A stretch of 37,927 nt of DNA from a virus, in the IMG/VR virus record IMGVR_UViG_3300028840_000127, positions 1-37,927 of that record, one strand, 5' to 3'. Of this stretch, positions 3,397 through 37,927 are shown piece by piece. The notes under the pieces were generated by a model. It ran no database searches. It had not been told where the DNA came from and saw nothing but the letters and a program-made list of their open reading frames with translations. The stretch's first letter is position 1, and every line of letters starts with the position of its first letter. A program made the translations under genes and the position numbers.

Positions 3397-4155
3397 TTAA
3401 ACAATGTAGCTAAGGGTAAATGATAACTGCGGTGCGGCGGAAAGCGCCGTTGTTGTCAAGATTGTTGGTGTAGACCCATCAACAGGAACGCTATAAAAAA
3501 CAATTGCTGTCGCGGCCGAGTTCAGAGTTGCAGTAATAAAAGCGCCAGTTACCCCTGTCCACCCATTTAGGTATGGGGCCGATATGGTAGCGTAACTTGC
3601 CGAAGCAAACGGCAAACCTTGAATCTGCAAATTGCCTGTTATCGTTCCCTTTGCCGCAACCTGAACGAGAACTACGCAAGTTACAAGGTTTCCAACTTTG
3701 GTGTATTTTGCCGATCTAAAGGTATAGGTCTGGCCTGATGTTCCACCAGAACCGCCCAGTACTGCCGTGAAAGTCCCCTCCTCGTAGTCATCGAGCAAAT
3801 TTGCCGCTGCAGTCCCGCCAATATATGCGCCTTCGCTAAGATAAAGTGCCTTAAATCGTGATGTACTTCTGCCCAAGTCAATAGTTCCGTCACTGTTCCC
3901 TGCGGCTAATTCTGGACTGACAGCAGAGGACGCACTATTAAATAACAAGTTTGCAACGCCGGTTCCTATTTTTATGTATCCAGCTCTAGTGGTGATTACA
4001 CCAGTGCCGACTGTTACTTGGGAGTTTGCCCCTAACGAGATGTCTGACCCATCGTCCATTACGATGTCGTTGGCTCCGCTGGTATTCCCCTTTGCCAGAA
4101 TCTCGCTCAAGGTATCAGATGCTAGTGCTAATTGTGTTGATACTGTTTTTAACAT
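3397..4155 (-). CDS. Tail fibre protein with shared C-terminal receptor domain
   Basis: A 252-residue protein. The first ~115 residues are Gly/Ser/Thr-rich with short beta-type repeats. The second half begins at an element LDDYEEGTFTAVL and continues with a YTKVGNLVTCV segment, then GNLQIQGLPF. This is the common C-terminal module of small phage fibres. The same module, diverged, ends the second tailspike (GVWTPVL, YYSQINGIVTL, GNLTLAGLPI). It therefore probably forms a distal trimeric receptor-contact or folding domain. The gene lies between the two beta-helix spikes. It could be an independent short fibre or an adaptor that joins the second spike to the particle. Confidence 0.72.
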   Translation of the reverse strand: MLKTVSTQLALASDTLSEILAKGNTSGANDIVMDDGSDISLGANSQVTVGTGVITTRAGYIKIGTGVANLLFNSASSAVSPELAAGNSDGTIDLGRSTSRFKALYLSEGAYIGGTAAANLLDDYEEGTFTAVLGGSGGTSGQTYTFRSAKYTKVGNLVTCVVLVQVAAKGTITGNLQIQGLPFASASYATISAPYLNGWTGVTGAFITATLNSAATAIVFYSVPVDGSTPTILTTTALSAAPQLSFTLSYIV

Positions 4156-30543: not shown

Positions 30544-30705
30544 ATCAGGCCGCCCTAGGATGCTTTCGCCCGTGCGGCGTATGGTACGAAACTCATCGCC
30601 AAGGATCATGACGACAATGCCCTGGCGCTGGTTGCGTTCGTACTCAGCCCAACCCAACCCCACCAGGCGGTCGCAAGTGCCCTGTTGGGGTTGGGTTAAC
30701 CTCAC
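30538..30705 (-). CDS. Small protein after the ejection genes (55 aa)
   Basis: A 55-residue frame that starts with GTG, overlapping the gp16-like stop as GTGA, and ends in TAG against the convergent mini-operon. The second half looks like a folded segment (RQGIVVMILGDEFRTI, then RRTGESILGR). The family is not recognised. A large hairpin (30651-30697) lies within its first codons and may slow or regulate its translation, or may instead be the real feature here. Confidence 0.48.
   Translation of the reverse strand: MRLTQPQQGTCDRLVGLGWAEYERNQRQGIVVMILGDEFRTIRRTGESILGRPDL
30651..30697 (-). other. 12-base-pair stem-loop directly after the gp16-like gene
   Basis: AACCCAACCCCA and TGGGGTTGGGTT pair perfectly over 12 bases around a 23-base loop, which can pair again (CAGG/CCTG). 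On the minus strand it begins five bases past the ejection gene stop. No T run follows. Candidate roles are mRNA 3'-end protection, attenuation, or control of the 55-residue frame that it overlaps. Confidence 0.8.
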
Positions 30706-32567
30706 TCTGGTGCTACTGGTAGGGTGTTAGGCTCCTGCGTTTCCATCTTGCGGCGCAGCAGTTCTTCGATGGCTTTCAAAGCGTTAGCCTCATTGACGCC
30801 ACGAACTTTCTCAATACCGGCTTTAAGCATCTCAAACGCGGTAGTTGTTGCGTCGCTCCTGGCTATGTCAATGCCTTTGTTCAACGCCTGCTCCATCTGA
30901 CCCTTCAAACTGGTAGACGCTGTGGCACCAAACATGCGGTCTATTTCATTGGCAACAATGACCTGGTTGATAATGTTGTCTTTTATCTTAAGCCCATACT
31001 TGGCGGCGATCTGATCAGCCAAAGCCAAAGAGTCCATCAACGGGATGCGGCTGCCGTAATTACTCAACAATTTCCGCATTTCTTGCCCAAGTGCTTTATC
31101 AGCGTTGGGGCTATCCAGGTCAATCCTTTTACCCATCGCGCTTTGTAACTCATCCAGCGCACCAAGCGTTTCGCTGAACGTGGTATTGGCTTCCTTGTAG
31201 GCCGGGAATGCTTCGCCCAGCGCAGTGTTAAGGTCGCGCCGCAGCCCCTTAACAACACGCTCTGCTTGCTTAGTCAACGGATTGGCCTTGCTCTTGCCAT
31301 ACTGGACCTGGGTGTCGATAAACCGCTTGGCCAGGTGAACCTTGTAGGCGTCTGGCACATCAGTATTATCAAAACGAGCAAGGATTCTGTTTAGCAATGC
31401 TTGGGCGGCCCTGTCACCTTCAATGTCTGATCCGCGCAGCACTGCGACAAGGTTGCCCTCATTGTTACGGTTCAGGGTGACGCCGATATCGTTTAGCGAT
31501 GTCTCGAACTTGGTCATTGCTGGTTCATATGCAACCGGCTTGCGGATCATTGTCTCTTTAGCAATCCGGTCAATCTCGGCGCCGCTTTCTTTTTTAGTAT
31601 CAACAAGGAACTTAACCCGTTCATCAACGGACTGCCCGATGATATCAGTTGGGCGCCGGGTAGCTCGCAACATCTCATCGCGCTGGCCGGCTTTGTACCG
31701 TTGCACCATCTGCAGCGCCTTGGTGCGGTCTAGGTCTGTGCCGGCCTTCATCGCGGCAATAACCCCCGGTTGCCAGCCTTGCTTAATAGCTGCCTCTGCC
31801 AAATTGTCTCGGACAATACGCTCGGCGCCAGGTGGCCCCTTGACCATCACGGGTGCATTAGCAACATTGTAAGGTTGGGCCTTCGCCAGTTCCACGCTTG
31901 GCGCGTCGCGCCTAATTCCTGGTGCCTCTACCGCACGCTTGACTGCGCCGGCAACCTGCCCAACGGGAGACTCGGCCACGGCTTCTGCGCCTCGGCGTAC
32001 TGCACCAGTTGCAGAGGCAGCAGCGGCACCTGTGGCAGGCGCAATCGGCCCGGCTAGGCGTGCAGCTTGCCCTGCCGCAGCCAGTTCCCCCGTTGCACCG
32101 GCCAATGGCGCCAGGTAACGGCCCGCAAACTCGCCAGCAGCCTGCGTCATCTGCTGACCCTGCTCGGTCCTTGGTTGGTAAGTATACTTGGCACCTAATT
32201 GTTCAGCGGCTTGCTTGATGCGCTGGGCTGCGTCTGCTGTACCAAACTTGCCGGACTGGATTTCTTCCGCAAGCTGGAGCAACGTGCCGCGCACTTGGCC
32301 ACCCATACCTGTAGTGGAACCGGTGGCCATCGTCAGCGCAGTCTCGCCAACACCAATTGCTTGCTCACCCATCGTTGGTTCGGGTTGTAACACTGGTGGC
32401 TCAACGTACTGGCCCTCGGGCGTGACGGCTGATTCAGCAAAACCAGGGATACCCATTTCGTAATCTGGTTGCGCCAATTCTGGAGCCGCGACTTCTTCCT
32501 CATCTATAAGAAGCCCGCCAAACTTGCTGGTATTTGCGACAGCAACGCCGCCGAATTTCGATGGCAT
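30702..32567 (-). CDS. gp16-like DNA ejection protein
   Basis: A 621-residue protein at the gp16 position of the P22 order (P22 gp16 has 609 residues). The N-terminus has two PSKFGG-type elements (PSKFGGVAV, TSKFGGLLID). A TYQPRTEQGQQ segment lies at about residues 130-140, then an Ala/Gly-rich stretch, then a long helical C-terminal two-thirds. gp16 leaves the head with the DNA and helps it cross the cell envelope. The ATG follows the gp20-like stop by two bases. The YQPRTEQGQQ element is shared with the ART-GNAT protein. The assignment rests mainly on order, length and type, so fine details are inferred. Confidence 0.72.
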   Translation of the reverse strand: MPSKFGGVAVANTSKFGGLLIDEEEVAAPELAQPDYEMGIPGFAESAVTPEGQYVEPPVLQPEPTMGEQAIGVGETALTMATGSTTGMGGQVRGTLLQLAEEIQSGKFGTADAAQRIKQAAEQLGAKYTYQPRTEQGQQMTQAAGEFAGRYLAPLAGATGELAAAGQAARLAGPIAPATGAAAASATGAVRRGAEAVAESPVGQVAGAVKRAVEAPGIRRDAPSVELAKAQPYNVANAPVMVKGPPGAERIVRDNLAEAAIKQGWQPGVIAAMKAGTDLDRTKALQMVQRYKAGQRDEMLRATRRPTDIIGQSVDERVKFLVDTKKESGAEIDRIAKETMIRKPVAYEPAMTKFETSLNDIGVTLNRNNEGNLVAVLRGSDIEGDRAAQALLNRILARFDNTDVPDAYKVHLAKRFIDTQVQYGKSKANPLTKQAERVVKGLRRDLNTALGEAFPAYKEANTTFSETLGALDELQSAMGKRIDLDSPNADKALGQEMRKLLSNYGSRIPLMDSLALADQIAAKYGLKIKDNIINQVIVANEIDRMFGATASTSLKGQMEQALNKGIDIARSDATTTAFEMLKAGIEKVRGVNEANALKAIEELLRRKMETQEPNTLPVAPE

Positions 32568-32569
32568 GG

Positions 32570-33865
32570 TTATGGCTTCCTGTATGTTTGGCCGTCTTCT
32601 TCGGTGTACAGCGACCCGGACGGCAGCGCGGCAAACTCGGCAGCAGTCGTTACCATAGGTAACACGCTACTATCCTGCCCGTCTGTAAACACGTCAGCAG
32701 GGTTAAGACCAAGCCTAGCAACGATACCCTCCATTGACTTGCGGGTCTTGGCCCCATCCTTTTCTGCAGCGGCGAGGTACTGCTTTGCAAGATTAACAAA
32801 AGTGGTTCGTTGCGGGTTCGTTAAAAATTGACCACCTTTGGCTTTTGTTAACAAGTTTTCTAGCGATGTCAACAGACCACCAGTGTCTCTGGCAACCGCA
32901 AACTCAGACTCGCGAACAGTTGAGCCAGGGTCGAGCATTTTCATGAATGAAGTGATCAACGCAACGTCGCCCAAACCTTCTTGGATTTTTGCGGATTCTT
33001 CCATTTTTTGGAAGTTAACTCGACCAGCAGTAACGTCGCCTACCCGCTTGTTGTATTCTGTACGCAAATCTTTGGATGCTGTGTATCGCTTGTCTGGATC
33101 GTAAATTATACCGGTTGGATTTTGTGCTTCAATTGTAAACAAGTTTCTTGCAGTATCCTGACTGACCCCAGCACCCTTGTAAGAATCAATAATTTTCTGT
33201 GTGGTCTTTGGATTGACGCCCATATTGGTGCCAAGCTGCATTAACTGAAAGTCTTGCTCGGCAAGTGCGCCAGGCTGCAATTGGTTTTCACGAACATTCT
33301 TGGTACGTTTCTCATAGAATGACGCGTACTGCTCTGGACCCATGTTGGCGTTCAGGAACATATCGACAGTGGTCAGTGCCGCGTCGGGGTTCATCTCAAT
33401 CTGCTGCTTCAGTACCCCAAGCGAGTCTGCACCAGCAGTGTCGCCGCTGTTCTCTGCAGCCAAACGCTGCTTCTCGACAAGATCTACCGCAGCATTGACG
33501 CCGCCAGACGATAACGCAGACGATATCTGGGTGGCCTGCATCAACTTGTTTTGTTTCTGCTCGCTGTTGAGTATGTCAAAGTTGGCCTTGAGCGACTCAC
33601 CTAGTTGGGGGTATGCCAACATGACCGACTGCAGTGCTTGCGGGCTTGGCTTAGGACCCAACCCGGCCAGGGCTGCTTGGAACTCTTGCTGTTTGGCTTG
33701 CGCCTTTTGATACTCAGCAACTTTCATCTGGTTTAGATCAATGTTTTGCTGACCAATTTGCTGCTGCTGTTGGGCCTGCTGTATGGCGCCGGCGTCAGAA
33801 AACCCCTGCATCGCCATCTGCAGCGGGTTCTGTCCGCTTTGAAATGCTGCGTAATCAACTGCCAT
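32570..33865 (-). CDS. gp20-like DNA ejection protein
   Basis: A 431-residue protein (P22 gp20 has 471) in the gp7-gp20-gp16 order. It has an N-terminal MAMQGFSDAGAIQQAQQQQQ, a Gln-rich helical region up to about residue 70, then alternating helices and a C-terminal LPSGSLYTEEDGQTYRKP. The family is packaged in the head and expelled to form part of the trans-envelope conduit. The ATG is at 33865, 18 bases after the gp7-like stop. Confidence 0.78.
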   Translation of the reverse strand: MAVDYAAFQSGQNPLQMAMQGFSDAGAIQQAQQQQQIGQQNIDLNQMKVAEYQKAQAKQQEFQAALAGLGPKPSPQALQSVMLAYPQLGESLKANFDILNSEQKQNKLMQATQISSALSSGGVNAAVDLVEKQRLAAENSGDTAGADSLGVLKQQIEMNPDAALTTVDMFLNANMGPEQYASFYEKRTKNVRENQLQPGALAEQDFQLMQLGTNMGVNPKTTQKIIDSYKGAGVSQDTARNLFTIEAQNPTGIIYDPDKRYTASKDLRTEYNKRVGDVTAGRVNFQKMEESAKIQEGLGDVALITSFMKMLDPGSTVRESEFAVARDTGGLLTSLENLLTKAKGGQFLTNPQRTTFVNLAKQYLAAAEKDGAKTRKSMEGIVARLGLNPADVFTDGQDSSVLPMVTTAAEFAALPSGSLYTEEDGQTYRKP

Positions 33866-33882: not shown

Positions 33883-34656
33883 TTAATAGGTGCCAGGTGA
33901 ATTTGGATTAGGAACCATGCCGGGCATTGGTGTAACCGTGCTAGGCGCTGCGTTAGCAAAAGGACCATACCCCTGCATACCCATGCCGCCCAGGTAACCA
34001 ACTGAGCCGGCCACGTTGCCCCATGCCTGGCCTTTTGCCAGTGCGGCTTGCGCCTGCGCGTTGCCTGCCCCAATCTGCGCGTTACCGATGTTAGATGCCA
34101 TGTTCATACCTGCCGCGCCAACGCCGGCGCCAGACGCCTGGCCCATACTGGCAAGGTTCTGCGCTGCGTTGCCGCCAAAGGTCGCCATACCGCCCAGCTT
34201 CGTATACTTGTCTTCGATCATCTGAGATAGAACCGCTGGCCTGAATTGCGCCAAGGCTGCCTGGATGTTTCCGCCTCGCAGACCGCCAGTTGCTGATGCG
34301 TTCTGCAGAATGGCGTTCTCGCCCTGGCGAACTTGCTCCAAGTAGAGTGGCGACTGTTCAATGCGGTTGATTGCCTCCTGCTGTGCAGCAGGCCCAAACA
34401 TTCCGTTCAGCGCCTGCTGCTCATTCAGTGCTGGTTGGGCCACCTCTGAGTAGGACGCGATCTGGCGCAACGCAGGGTTGCCGGCGTCAACGTAGGGCTT
34501 TAGAACTTGCTGCATGGCCTGAAACTGCGCACGCTGCTCTGCAATGCTGGCATCTGCCGCTGCACCTTGGGCGTCAGCAGCTTTGCCGGCAGCCTTTGAT
34601 GACATTACCCCGCCAACAACGGCGCTTCCTATAATAGCTGTTGCTATTCCTGACAT
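33883..34656 (-). CDS. gp7-like DNA ejection protein
   Basis: A 257-residue protein (P22 gp7 has 229). The N-terminus is hydrophobic and Gly-rich (ATAIIGSAVVGGVMSSKAAG). A helical region (EQRAQFQAMQQVLKPYVDAG) and a Gly/Ala/Met-rich C-terminus (GYLGGMGMQGYGPF) follow. The N-terminal segment could insert into membrane during ejection. The start overlaps the end of the cupin-SET gene by 13 bases. The order with the next two genes matches P22 7-20-16. Confidence 0.78.
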   Translation of the reverse strand: MSGIATAIIGSAVVGGVMSSKAAGKAADAQGAAADASIAEQRAQFQAMQQVLKPYVDAGNPALRQIASYSEVAQPALNEQQALNGMFGPAAQQEAINRIEQSPLYLEQVRQGENAILQNASATGGLRGGNIQAALAQFRPAVLSQMIEDKYTKLGGMATFGGNAAQNLASMGQASGAGVGAAGMNMASNIGNAQIGAGNAQAQAALAKGQAWGNVAGSVGYLGGMGMQGYGPFANAAPSTVTPMPGMVPNPNSPGTY

Positions 34657-35507
34657 GATAATGCCTCAACTTTTAGCAAGGCGTTTGCCTGCCTGTAATC
34701 AACTGTTAATTCTTCGCCAGCAGACCCGCCTTGGCACCCGGCTATGTTTCGTTTTGCAATTAAGTAAATATCGCCGTTTTCGGTTTGTTTATAAATACAA
34801 TTTGGCGTTGCAGCATGGTTAACGTACCTGCCAGCCGGCGTTCTTTTCCCGTTAATTCTGGCCGGCGCTATGACAGACCCAGGCGTTACCGGCCAACTTA
34901 GAAACAAACCGTTGCCGGCAATGTCAGATTTTCTTATAGATGTGGCAGCAGCCCAACCATGAGGCATGTCGATAATATCGGAAACGTCTTCTGACTGAGC
35001 TTGCACGGTTTCTGCGTCAGTATCTAGCTGGGTTAGCATTTGAGTAAAGTCTTGCCGGTCAACCTCGCAAAGCGCATTCCTAAATTTTTTTTGCGGCACA
35101 TCATAATCAACCCAGGTATCGCTTTTTTCTAAATAAATAGACTCCAACTTGTCTATGTCTGTTTCGTCTGTTGCGTAAACATTTTGCCATACAACCGTTT
35201 CTAGCACATAACCCGTTTTACGCCCTGGCTCGCCAACAAATATTAAAGGCGCAGACAGCACAACCATTGCGCCATCCTTCTCCATAAGAACTTTACCAGT
35301 TATCATAATATTTAAATGTCTAAATTTTTGCCTGTGCCCGATGGCGAAGGTGCCCGCAGGCATGGTGACTTCGCGGATGTAGATGCCTGGGCCAAAATGG
35401 TGAGCGACTGGGCAGGAAGCCTGCGGCAGATTCAGCATCGCAGCTTCGACTTGCTCGATGCCTTCATGCTTTGCAATTGCTGTGGGTTTGACTAATGCTA
35501 CGCTCAA
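34644..35507 (-). CDS. Cupin-like + SET-domain fusion protein
   Basis: A 287-residue protein. Residues ~30-130 form a beta-rich cupin-like domain (GIYIREVTMPAGTFAIGH, LNIMITGKVLMEKDG). Residues ~186-272 show SET-domain marks: GNGLF (198-202), NHAATPNC (230-237) and EELTVDY (265-271). These are the SAM-binding and catalytic knot motifs of lysine methyltransferases. It begins with TTG at 35507 after AAAGGAG. The gene lies just before the ejection genes, so the protein may be carried in the virion and methylate a virion or host protein. DNA of the central and 3' parts is AT-rich compared with its 5' end, a hint of fusion or transfer. Activity is unproven. Confidence 0.72.
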   Translation of the reverse strand: MSVALVKPTAIAKHEGIEQVEAAMLNLPQASCPVAHHFGPGIYIREVTMPAGTFAIGHRQKFRHLNIMITGKVLMEKDGAMVVLSAPLIFVGEPGRKTGYVLETVVWQNVYATDETDIDKLESIYLEKSDTWVDYDVPQKKFRNALCEVDRQDFTQMLTQLDTDAETVQAQSEDVSDIIDMPHGWAAATSIRKSDIAGNGLFLSWPVTPGSVIAPARINGKRTPAGRYVNHAATPNCIYKQTENGDIYLIAKRNIAGCQGGSAGEELTVDYRQANALLKVEALSCQE

Positions 35508-35595
35508 TATTCCATCTCCTTTTCAGGGCACAATTTGAGGAGCCGGCACTCAGTTACTCAGCTACACCACATTTTGGTCTATTTGACCACTCTTA

Positions 35596-35937
35596 TCAAG
35601 TTATCTCTCGGCCAGACACCCGTAGCGACAACGACGCTGCCGCCGATGCCAGCACGCTAATCGCGTCGCCTGTGGCCAGGTAATGCCCGACCATTTCCGG
35701 CAAAGTGTAGGTCTCGCCAACAGCGATGACCCTGGCATCGACCAGCAGGTTGGTTGCGCTGGCAGATCCGCCAAACGCCACCAGGTTGACGGATATCGCC
35801 ACGTTATCTGTCGCGTGCGTATTGGTCACGGTCGCCTTGTCAATGATCGCCTTGGCGCCCGTCGGTGCTGAGTAGAGCGTTACCTGCGATGCTGCGAGCA
35901 ATACTGGCGCTATGAGTACCTTGTTGCTGACTGTCAT
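35596..35937 (-). CDS. Small beta-rich virion-associated protein
   Basis: A 113-residue protein: TVSNKVLIAPVLLAASQVTL, then KAIIDKATVTNTHATDNVAI and a YTLPEMVGHYLATGD element. The pattern is beta-sandwich-like and recurs in phage tail or decoration loci. It follows the needle/fibre candidate by 9 bases and resembles in size and composition the protein at 1079-1417. Exact role unknown. Confidence 0.62.
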   Translation of the reverse strand: MTVSNKVLIAPVLLAASQVTLYSAPTGAKAIIDKATVTNTHATDNVAISVNLVAFGGSASATNLLVDARVIAVGETYTLPEMVGHYLATGDAISVLASAAASLSLRVSGREIT

Positions 35938-35946
35938 GGGGTCACC

Positions 35947-37179
35947 TTAAAGTTGGATCTGCGTTAAGAATACTGAGGCAGAAGACGCTGCAGGCGAGAA
36001 CGCCGTGGCAGGTATCGCGTCAAGTCGCAAGCTGGTAGTGTCTGCAGCCCACCGGACCTCAACATAATCACCAATGATGAGACTGACCTGGTACATATAA
36101 GAAATTAGCTTGGTGTCGCCGTTGGCTTTGATGGTAAAGTCGGACCCGCTGTTGGCCACGTCGGTGCCGTTAATCGCAAGCCATGCGTAAAGCGTAGACG
36201 ATGAGGCGGTTGACGACGTTGCCTGCAGCTTGACGTTTATTTGGTACAGCCCTGCCTGTTCTACCGTCAGTCGCGTACTAGATACCAGGTCCACGTCATG
36301 CACCGCGCCAGTGCCGTTGAACGTGACCTCATACGCGGTATTGGCTGCTGCGGGCACCTGGTCAACGGTTGAGTAATAATTTGCGTATGCCAAACCTATG
36401 GGCACTGTCGTGCGGACCATGATCTCACCGTCAGTGGCGTCAACCACCATAACAGCGGCCACAATTATCACCGCATTGGGCGCCGTGGGCCTCACGTTGG
36501 TGTAATTGCCAGCGATGGTCGGCGACGTGTACAAAATGTCGCCCTTGGCCCAGACTTCTCCTGCGCTGGTTCCGGTGGTGTCAAAGCCTCGGACCCGACC
36601 GTACAAGGTCACCATGCCAATCTCGCCGTCTGCCAGATCCTGGGTCAATACGCCGATGAAATACTCAGAAGGCAGAGACCCGTCGGCGATGTACGGCGCA
36701 CACTTGATGTAACCATTGACGCCGTCAAACCCGACCACGCTGCCGTTGGGGATAGCCGACCCAGTAAAGTTCTCAACGTGCATGTACGTTTCTTGCCCGA
36801 CCTGCTGAACTACGCCGTACTGGTGACCGACGTTCAACGTGTCGTCCTGGTCGTTCCACCACACCCTTGCCCGCTTATACCCAACAGGCGCAAACCGGTC
36901 CATGTCAATTGTATCAAGCACTGGGCGCCTAACGTCAGACGCAGCAGGGACGCTTGTGAGCAGCTCCAATGCTTCAGCTATGCGCAACAAGGCTGCGCTG
37001 TTGCTTTCAGCCCTGGCCATAGCAGAGACGGTCTCGATGCCGACCTCCTCGATAAGCGCCAGCAACGTGATCAGGTCGTTCGGGATAACGTCGAACAGTT
37101 GCTCAAACGCCCGTATTGACCGTTGGTCAGGCAAAAACTTTGCAAAGTCTGCGCGGGTTGGTTTTATCGGGGTCGCCAT
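35947..37179 (-). CDS. Tail needle/fibre candidate with C1q/TNF-like end
   Basis: A 410-residue protein directly after the gp10-like gene, the gp26 needle slot of P22. Residues ~1-85 are helical. Residues ~100-270 form the repeated beta module common in phage fibres (RVWWNDQDDTLNVG, GQETYMHVENFTG, EIGMVTLYGRVRGFDT). Residues ~272-410 look like a C1q/TNF-type jelly roll (AYEVTFNGTG, LTVEQAGLYQINVKL, LISYMYQVSLIIGDYVEV). The needle tip of phage Sf6 also has a TNF-like knob, so a plug or needle role is attractive; a separate receptor fibre is the alternative. The start ATG overlaps the gp10-like stop by 1 base. Confidence 0.62.
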   Translation of the reverse strand: MATPIKPTRADFAKFLPDQRSIRAFEQLFDVIPNDLITLLALIEEVGIETVSAMARAESNSAALLRIAEALELLTSVPAASDVRRPVLDTIDMDRFAPVGYKRARVWWNDQDDTLNVGHQYGVVQQVGQETYMHVENFTGSAIPNGSVVGFDGVNGYIKCAPYIADGSLPSEYFIGVLTQDLADGEIGMVTLYGRVRGFDTTGTSAGEVWAKGDILYTSPTIAGNYTNVRPTAPNAVIIVAAVMVVDATDGEIMVRTTVPIGLAYANYYSTVDQVPAAANTAYEVTFNGTGAVHDVDLVSSTRLTVEQAGLYQINVKLQATSSTASSSTLYAWLAINGTDVANSGSDFTIKANGDTKLISYMYQVSLIIGDYVEVRWAADTTSLRLDAIPATAFSPAASSASVFLTQIQL

Positions 37180-37927
37180 CAGAACATCAACGGCTCAATG
37201 CGAGCCTCCAGTCGAGCGAACGAGATATGGGCGCGGCTGTCACCCTGGAAACGCTGCAGACGCCAGTTGCGCATCTTGCCTTGCCGGCGCCAGCACAGTC
37301 GCTTCTGGAAGTCCCCTGGCCCGCCAGAGGCAATGGGCGCCGCTGCAGTGTAGGCAACCCCGTCATAGGTCCACGATGTGCTGATGGTGGTGTCAGCATC
37401 AACCCTGCCAGTCAGCGCAACCAGCTCCAGGTCGTGGAACACAGCGCCCATGCCCGTGTTGTAAATGATCGCCGTGCCGAACTCCCAGCGCACGTCAGTG
37501 CCCCAGTGGGCGCCGTTGGTGTCGCTGAACGTGCCAAGCGCAGTAGACTGCGGGTCTGCAACCAGCCACTTGTTGTAGGCCCACACAAACGACCTGGCGC
37601 GGTACTGAGAGAACCCGGTAAGCGATGAGGTCAGCGTGAACCAGACCGGCGCCTGCAGTGCCTGGCTGGCTGTGGCATCGTACACAATCGTCCGGTCAGG
37701 CAGGTGGACGTACAAATACTCATGTGCCTTGTCGTTGCGGGTTTCAACCAGCGACACAGACAACTGGGCCTCGGTGTAGTCGAGCAGTAGGGTGTCGATC
37801 TCCTGGCTGCTGATCTTAACCGTCTGCGCGGAGGCTGCCATATACACACCTGGCGCCTCGTTTCGACCGGACCCTACAAACGCTAGGGCCTCCATGAACA
37901 CGCAGCAAGCCTGTACGCCCACGCAGC
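37179..37927 (-). CDS. P22 gp10-like packaged-DNA stabilisation protein, C-terminal part (starts at 686)
   Basis: This is the second half of the protein that begins at 686. Reading across the junction (position 1 to 37896) keeps the frame and restores KGCVGVQACCVFMEALAFVG. The C-terminal region matches P22 gp10 in its ending: EYLYVHLPDRTIVYDATASQ (compare HELLIIHLPRHVLVYDASSSQ) and FQKRLCWRRQGKMRNWRLQR (compare YDKRVLWKRVGRIRRLIGFK). It would form the tail hub below gp4. The stop lies at 37179, one base into the ATG of the needle/fibre candidate. Confidence 0.88.
   Translation of the reverse strand, partial: CVGVQACCVFMEALAFVGSGRNEAPGVYMAASAQTVKISSQEIDTLLLDYTEAQLSVSLVETRNDKAHEYLYVHLPDRTIVYDATASQALQAPVWFTLTSSLTGFSQYRARSFVWAYNKWLVADPQSTALGTFSDTNGAHWGTDVRWEFGTAIIYNTGMGAVFHDLELVALTGRVDADTTISTSWTYDGVAYTAAAPIASGGPGDFQKRLCWRRQGKMRNWRLQRFQGDSRAHISFARLEARIEPLMF
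37897..37927. repeat. Terminal direct repeat, right copy
   Basis: Identical to bases 1-31. Removing one copy leaves 37,896 unique bases and an intact gp10-like gene, so the contig is circularly complete. Confidence 0.95.

Follow-up and report, generated by a model that had tools for sequence, protein, structure and literature searches.

Gene Organisation of the Locus

The analysed window is a complete virus record of 37,927 bases, and at 34644..35507 on its minus strand it carries a gene for a protein of 287 aa, which joins a cupin domain, a helical linker and a compact SET domain and matches the phage protein family phrog_34170 along its full length. This reading frame had been delimited exactly in the initial annotation, which mentioned neither its strand nor the unusual shortness of its SET domain. 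The gene starts with TTG, served by the ribosome-binding site AAGGAG at 35516..35521 (minus strand). The same box is present in the related loci L058–L062 and L010, where the start codon (TTG or ATG) has the same position as in the window gene, and relatives of the gene begin at the matching position with TTG, ATG or GTG.

The ends of the record share a direct overlap of 31 bases (1–31 and 37897–37927), and the gene for the head closure protein Hc3 (P22 gp10), the C-terminal part of which is located at 37179..37927 (minus strand; phrog_578, E 1.6e-40), continues through the join into the window start, forming a frame of 470 aa. The window therefore most likely represents a podophage genome closed into a circle. 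Its P22-type genes encode the major head protein, scaffold, portal, terminase, head-tail adaptor and Hc3.

All neighbours of the cupin-SET gene described here are on the minus strand. Directly upstream lies a gene for a conserved 113-aa protein (35596..35937), a homologue of which was detected in 93 of the SET-bearing loci that were fetched. It is preceded by a gene for a 410-aa protein (35947..37179) in the position of the P22 tail needle gp26; the C-terminal domain of this protein resembles the BclA/C1q-like knobs (Pfam BclA_C, E 1.6e-4, below the cut-off). Downstream, the end of the cupin-SET gene overlaps by 13 bases with the start of the gene for the first ejection protein (33883..34656), which is P22 gp7-like (phrog_598, E 9.4e-32; Pfam P22_gp7 below the cut-off). 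The following genes encode a 431-aa ejection-type protein (32570..33865), matching phrog_917 “released from the phage upon host infection” with E 1.2e-6, and a 621-aa protein (30702..32567), which corresponds to P22 gp16 by position only and has no family match in the profile search. Of the three ejection genes initially proposed downstream, the first is thus clear, the second is weakly supported and the third matches nothing. An ejection gene is located directly downstream in 45 of the 47 testable SET-bearing loci.

Domain Architecture and Predicted Folds

The match to phrog_34170 (E 2.9e-86) covers residues 13–276 of the protein and positions 16–280 of the 296 in the profile. The cupin domain, a double-stranded beta-helix at residues ~29–114 (35166..35423, minus strand), is recognised by its fold and by matches to phrog_12032 and phrog_24280. 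It is followed by the linker at residues ~115–183 (34959..35165, minus strand), where the structural model has helices at 118–173, and by the SET domain at residues ~184–277 (34677..34958, minus strand), with the motifs SxIxGxG, RTPxGR, NHxxxPN and GEExTxDY. The GNGLF, NHAATPNC and EELTVDY segments, on which the SET assignment was originally based, are all present in the claimed order, and the Pfam SET model (PF00856) matches with E 4.2e-7 and 30.8 bits, above its curated cut-off of 22.4. NCBIfam profiles gave a sub-threshold match only. No PADLOC defence model matched the protein, and an anti-phage defence reading was rejected.

An AlphaFold2 model of the whole protein, built from an alignment of 32 window and viral-contig sequences, has a mean pLDDT of 86.5, with values of 83–96 across the SET domain. 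The best structural match of the SET part is the SET domain of MLL1 (Z 11.1, 1.5 Å over 81 residues, 35% identity), and the alignment spans residues 181–272, including both motif blocks. Further matches are EZH2, SET7/9 and the viral vSET (Z 9.5 for the latter). The comparison of folds that had been suggested as a check of the SET assignment thus recovers the SET fold, as judged by alignment rather than by the coordinates of the pseudoknot.

For the N-terminal half, residues 29–112 of the full model match cupins such as ppnP (Z 9.3). When modelled alone, this half reaches a pLDDT of 95.7, and its best match is again ppnP (Z 9.0, 83 residues, 2.2 Å), the matches listed being cupin-fold proteins. 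None of the Pfam cupin models matches this half. In the alignment, read by eye, the canonical cupin metal ligands (HxH...E and the His of the second motif) are absent: only H58 and H64 occur near motif 1, and K97 in the PGRK segment stands near the expected His. Since ppnP, HP0902, ectoine synthase and DddK were tied at 7–16% identity, no known enzyme activity was assigned to this half. The proposed union of a cupin-like half with a SET domain beside ejection genes is real, no chance resemblance, and is conserved among the relatives.

The Compact SET Domain

In the alignment of 103 relatives, S194, G198, G200, R222, T223, G226, N230, E266, T268 and Y271 are invariant, and H231, P235, N236, R227 and D270 are nearly so. 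The NHxxxPN and GEExTxDY residues are thus kept almost without exception, so that neither of the two grounds initially given for rejecting the SET assignment applies. No positions of the domain are better conserved than those of the SAM site and the catalytic Tyr. The relatives are under strong purifying selection, with median dN/dS values of 0.02 in the cupin, 0.06 in the linker and 0.07 in the SET domain.

In the profile alignment with MLL1, the two halves of the SET domain are separated by 7 profile positions vs 42 residues in MLL1. About 35 central residues, known as SET-I, are therefore missing relative to MLL1 and EZH2, the comparison with EZH2 giving the same gap. In SET enzymes, both the strand pairing with the substrate peptide and the lysine-channel tyrosines come from SET-I. 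GxG and NH are exactly 30 residues apart in 127 of 127 fused copies measured, and the place of SET-I is occupied by RTPxG. No conserved Tyr was found in the GxG-to-NH stretch among the 103 relatives, and only Y271 is conserved as a channel Tyr. Because of this gap and the lack of a conserved Tyr within it, the usual lysine channel is incomplete in the phage domain. The initial designation of the protein as a lysine methyltransferase is therefore plausible in view of the invariant SAM-site and catalytic-Tyr motifs, but the missing SET-I, which would form the substrate strand and the lysine channel, means that this identity is not established.

MLL1, EZH2, SET7/9 and vSET have the fold and the SAM and catalytic motifs in common with the phage domain, although MLL1 and EZH2 carry the SET-I segment. 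Even vSET, a relative of known structure and very small size, exceeds the phage domain in length: the chain used for comparison has 105 residues, and 82 of them were aligned. The closest counterparts in size are the proteins of phrog_28741 from cyanophages P-SSM7 and P-RSM6 and pelagiphage Kolga, which comprise ~100 aa and share the SxxxGxG, RTPxG, NHSxxPN and GEE...Y core and a similarly short GxG-NH stretch. They differ in lacking the cupin and the linker, in their gene neighbourhoods and in the last motif, which is mostly KY and not DY. In free-standing phage SETs the GxG-to-NH distance is 30–35 residues, and the R, T and G of RTPxG, invariant in the fused family, are nearly invariant. The SET-I gap, its replacement by RTPxG and the existence of free-standing phage versions indicate that this is a distinct phage-borne compact SET domain, more than a copy of a histone methyltransferase. 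Should it prove active, it would make a SET methyltransferase well below the size of the textbook domain.

Distribution of the SET and Cupin Modules

Relatives of the cupin-SET protein were found in at least 563 IMG/VR stretches and relatives of the free-standing compact SET protein in at least 100 stretches of viral contigs, so the opinion that SET domains are uncommon in phage is too strong. Free-standing SETs of ~100 aa from marine phages (L130:4962-5270, L131:4968-5267 and L132:4971-5270) are annotated as hypothetical proteins. In P-RSM6, the free-standing SET gene adjoins baseplate wedge genes.

The cupin-SET architecture is already present in PHROG and GenBank as the uncharacterised family phrog_34170. 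Its members from Rhodoferax phage P26218 (gp30) and Pseudoalteromonas phage PH1 (ANY29560.1), together with UOF81456.1, represent the same two-domain protein at full length and differ in nothing essential; one is named after the structure of the PBCV-1 histone methyltransferase and the others are called hypothetical proteins. In P26218 the gene occupies the same slot before the ejection gene. Probably the architecture is present also in UniProt, where the cupin half finds a match in a 263-aa protein of an uncultured phage, entered as “SET domain containing protein”. Our literature search found no paper describing the fusion. On phage SET domains, it yielded nothing specific beyond a one-line mention of a “SET domain protein (ORF62)” in Stenotrophomonas phage Ps15 (PMC9025141).

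The cupin half itself is a widespread podophage protein, PHA00672. Members of this superfamily and of phrog_12032 and phrog_24280 (in BA3, VvAW1, X14 and Sphaerotilus phage R1) have the same cupin in the same slot but no SET domain. In the P22-like phages BA3, VvAW1, X14, 234P9 and ctkAd229, the cupin-only gene follows Hc3 and precedes the ejection gene or whichever gene takes its position. In Sphaerotilus phage R1, with its T7-type layout, it is located between tail tubular protein B and the internal virion proteins. Alteromonas phage H4/4 is an exception, since its cupin gene precedes the head-tail adaptor. The slot of the R1 cupin gene corresponds to gene 13 of T7, and the matching place in P22 is held by gene 14. 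T7 gp13 and P22 gp14 also precede the first ejection or internal protein, but they belong to other families, PF11090 and PF11039, for which Pfam gives only the names “probable scaffold protein” and DUF2824; both proteins probably have acetyltransferase-like folds, a point given no weight here. In the cupin-SET protein, an unusually small SET domain is joined to this podophage slot protein.

In a tree of 127 cupin domains, based on a short alignment and with many forks unresolved, 51 of the 53 SET-bearing rows fall into one well-supported group (100/99). The exceptions, PH1 and L177, are placed elsewhere, among SET-less relatives, and the main group includes two SET-less members, L051 and L213. 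Two loci show a split form: in L214 (3552–4459) and L216 (3334–4241), the linker and SET constitute a gene of their own, which overlaps the start of a cupin-only gene, both being placed between Hc3 and the ejection protein. The SET gene of L214 matches phrog_34170 from profile position 154, and the second part of the linker appears to travel with the SET domain in this form. In L177 (3505–4372), SET stands ahead of the cupin, its reading frame being broken by a frameshift.

Where SET accompanies the cupin, it mostly follows it in a fusion and otherwise forms a separate gene just ahead of it; many relatives lack it. No SET domain was found anywhere in the genomes of the cupin-only phages VvAW1 and BA3, so SET is dispensable. 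That the two parts are fused in one order and encoded by adjacent genes in the other is good evidence that they act together and that SET is an optional module on a conserved slot protein.

Possible Role of the Cupin-SET Protein

We suggest, with a probability of about 0.4, that the protein is a late, assembly-stage protein methyltransferase of a P22-like podophage, which acts on virion or ejection proteins. The cupin fills the slot that precedes the first ejection protein and would dock on a component of the neck or of the internal ejection machinery during assembly. The compact SET would bind S-adenosylmethionine and, before packaging or in its course, methylate lysines on the component bound by the cupin or on neighbours of that component. 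We infer the binding of SAM, the transfer of methyl to lysine, the virion or ejection substrate and the timing from several observations. The cupin and SET folds are recovered, and GxG, NH, PN, E266 and Y271, which serve SAM binding and catalysis in SET enzymes, are invariant or nearly so; this core is nearly invariant in the free-standing phage SETs too. Selection is strong on both domains (dN/dS ~0.07 for SET and 0.02 for cupin). The position is fixed by the ejection gene downstream, by the overlap with it and by the cupin-only relatives in the same slot, and the linkage of a linker-SET module to a cupin in two gene orders, seen in L214, L216 and L177, suggests functional coupling. The points against this proposal are the SET-I gap with no conserved Tyr, the lack of a conserved lysine in the ejection protein and the existence of SET-less phages. 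In the papers searched, neither proteomics of virions nor biochemistry of a relative was found, and the initially proposed virion-borne state of the protein is therefore putative.

It is also conceivable, if rather unlikely, that the SET domain has lost its protein-methylating activity and serves instead as a SAM-binding sensor, in non-lysine methylation or as a structural beta-clip module on a neck or tail protein. SET-I and any conserved channel Tyr except Y271 are absent, an invariant RTPxG takes the place of SET-I, and lysines of the neighbouring proteins are weakly conserved. However, the SAM-site and catalytic-Tyr positions, needless for a purely structural role, are just those most conserved, and free-standing versions of 100 aa persist in phages that have no cupin. 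Somewhat less probable still is that the protein is packaged and ejected, its SET domain methylating a host protein (for example, nucleoid, ribosomal or envelope) early in infection. The gene adjoins the ejection genes, T7 gp13, encoded in this slot, carries the annotation of an internal virion protein (phrog_308), and an optional SET is what one would expect for a host-directed function; yet P22 gp14, also in this slot, is annotated “head morphogenesis”, and the coupling to a cupin in a fixed structural slot suits a phage target at least equally well.

Database labels suggest a further reading, a short tail fibre or adhesin with SET as its receptor-binding or structural tip: the cupin half matches phrog_12032 “short tail fiber protein” and phrog_24280 “tail fiber adhesin”, and a resemblance to a putative RSK1 tail fiber protein has been noted for P26218 gp30. 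We consider it very improbable, since these labels are names given without tests in database records, dN/dS of 0.02–0.07 would represent a very high conservation for a receptor-binding protein, and the tail-needle or fibre-like gene of the locus is another one, that for the 410-aa protein. The authors of the VvAW1 paper call the cupin protein only a hypothetical protein, PHA00672 (PMC3558961).

Returning to the assembly-stage methyltransferase, its more far-reaching form is doubtful: a minimal SET enzyme (~90–100 aa, no SET-I) would have evolved in phages, with RTPxG, and perhaps a partner protein to which the cupin brings it, replacing the substrate wall, and in podophages it would modify the DNA-ejection machinery. 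To our knowledge, there is no phage precedent for post-translational modification of this machinery. If SET is active, the phage would methylate proteins of its own neck or ejection apparatus, or those of the host. For the slot gene (T7 gp13, P22 gp14, PHA00672), we found no settled function, and a version fused to an enzyme offers a direct handle on it via methyl-lysine. Related phages, in which the SET module is present or not, fused or separate, represent a natural experiment.

The search for a substrate lysine gave little support to the adjacent ejection protein: no alignment column has 50% Lys among 47 aligned proteins, and none reaches 80% among 87 proteins, which counts against this protein as the substrate. 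K34 of the 113-aa protein is Lys in 84 loci with SET and in 14 of 15 loci without it, and this equal conservation makes it uninformative. The 431-aa protein has Lys93 in 42 loci with SET and in 0 of the 4 available without it, four being too few to count, so that it may be regarded as a weak lead to a putative methylation site.

Comparison of the window (35440–35600) with L010 (~3460–3610) showed near-identity in the intergenic stretch and in the first ~20 codons of the cupin-SET gene, whereas identity falls to ~51% over the remainder of the protein. There appears to be a recombination boundary just inside the gene. The near-identical stretch contains a short inverted repeat, GGTCAAATAGACC.
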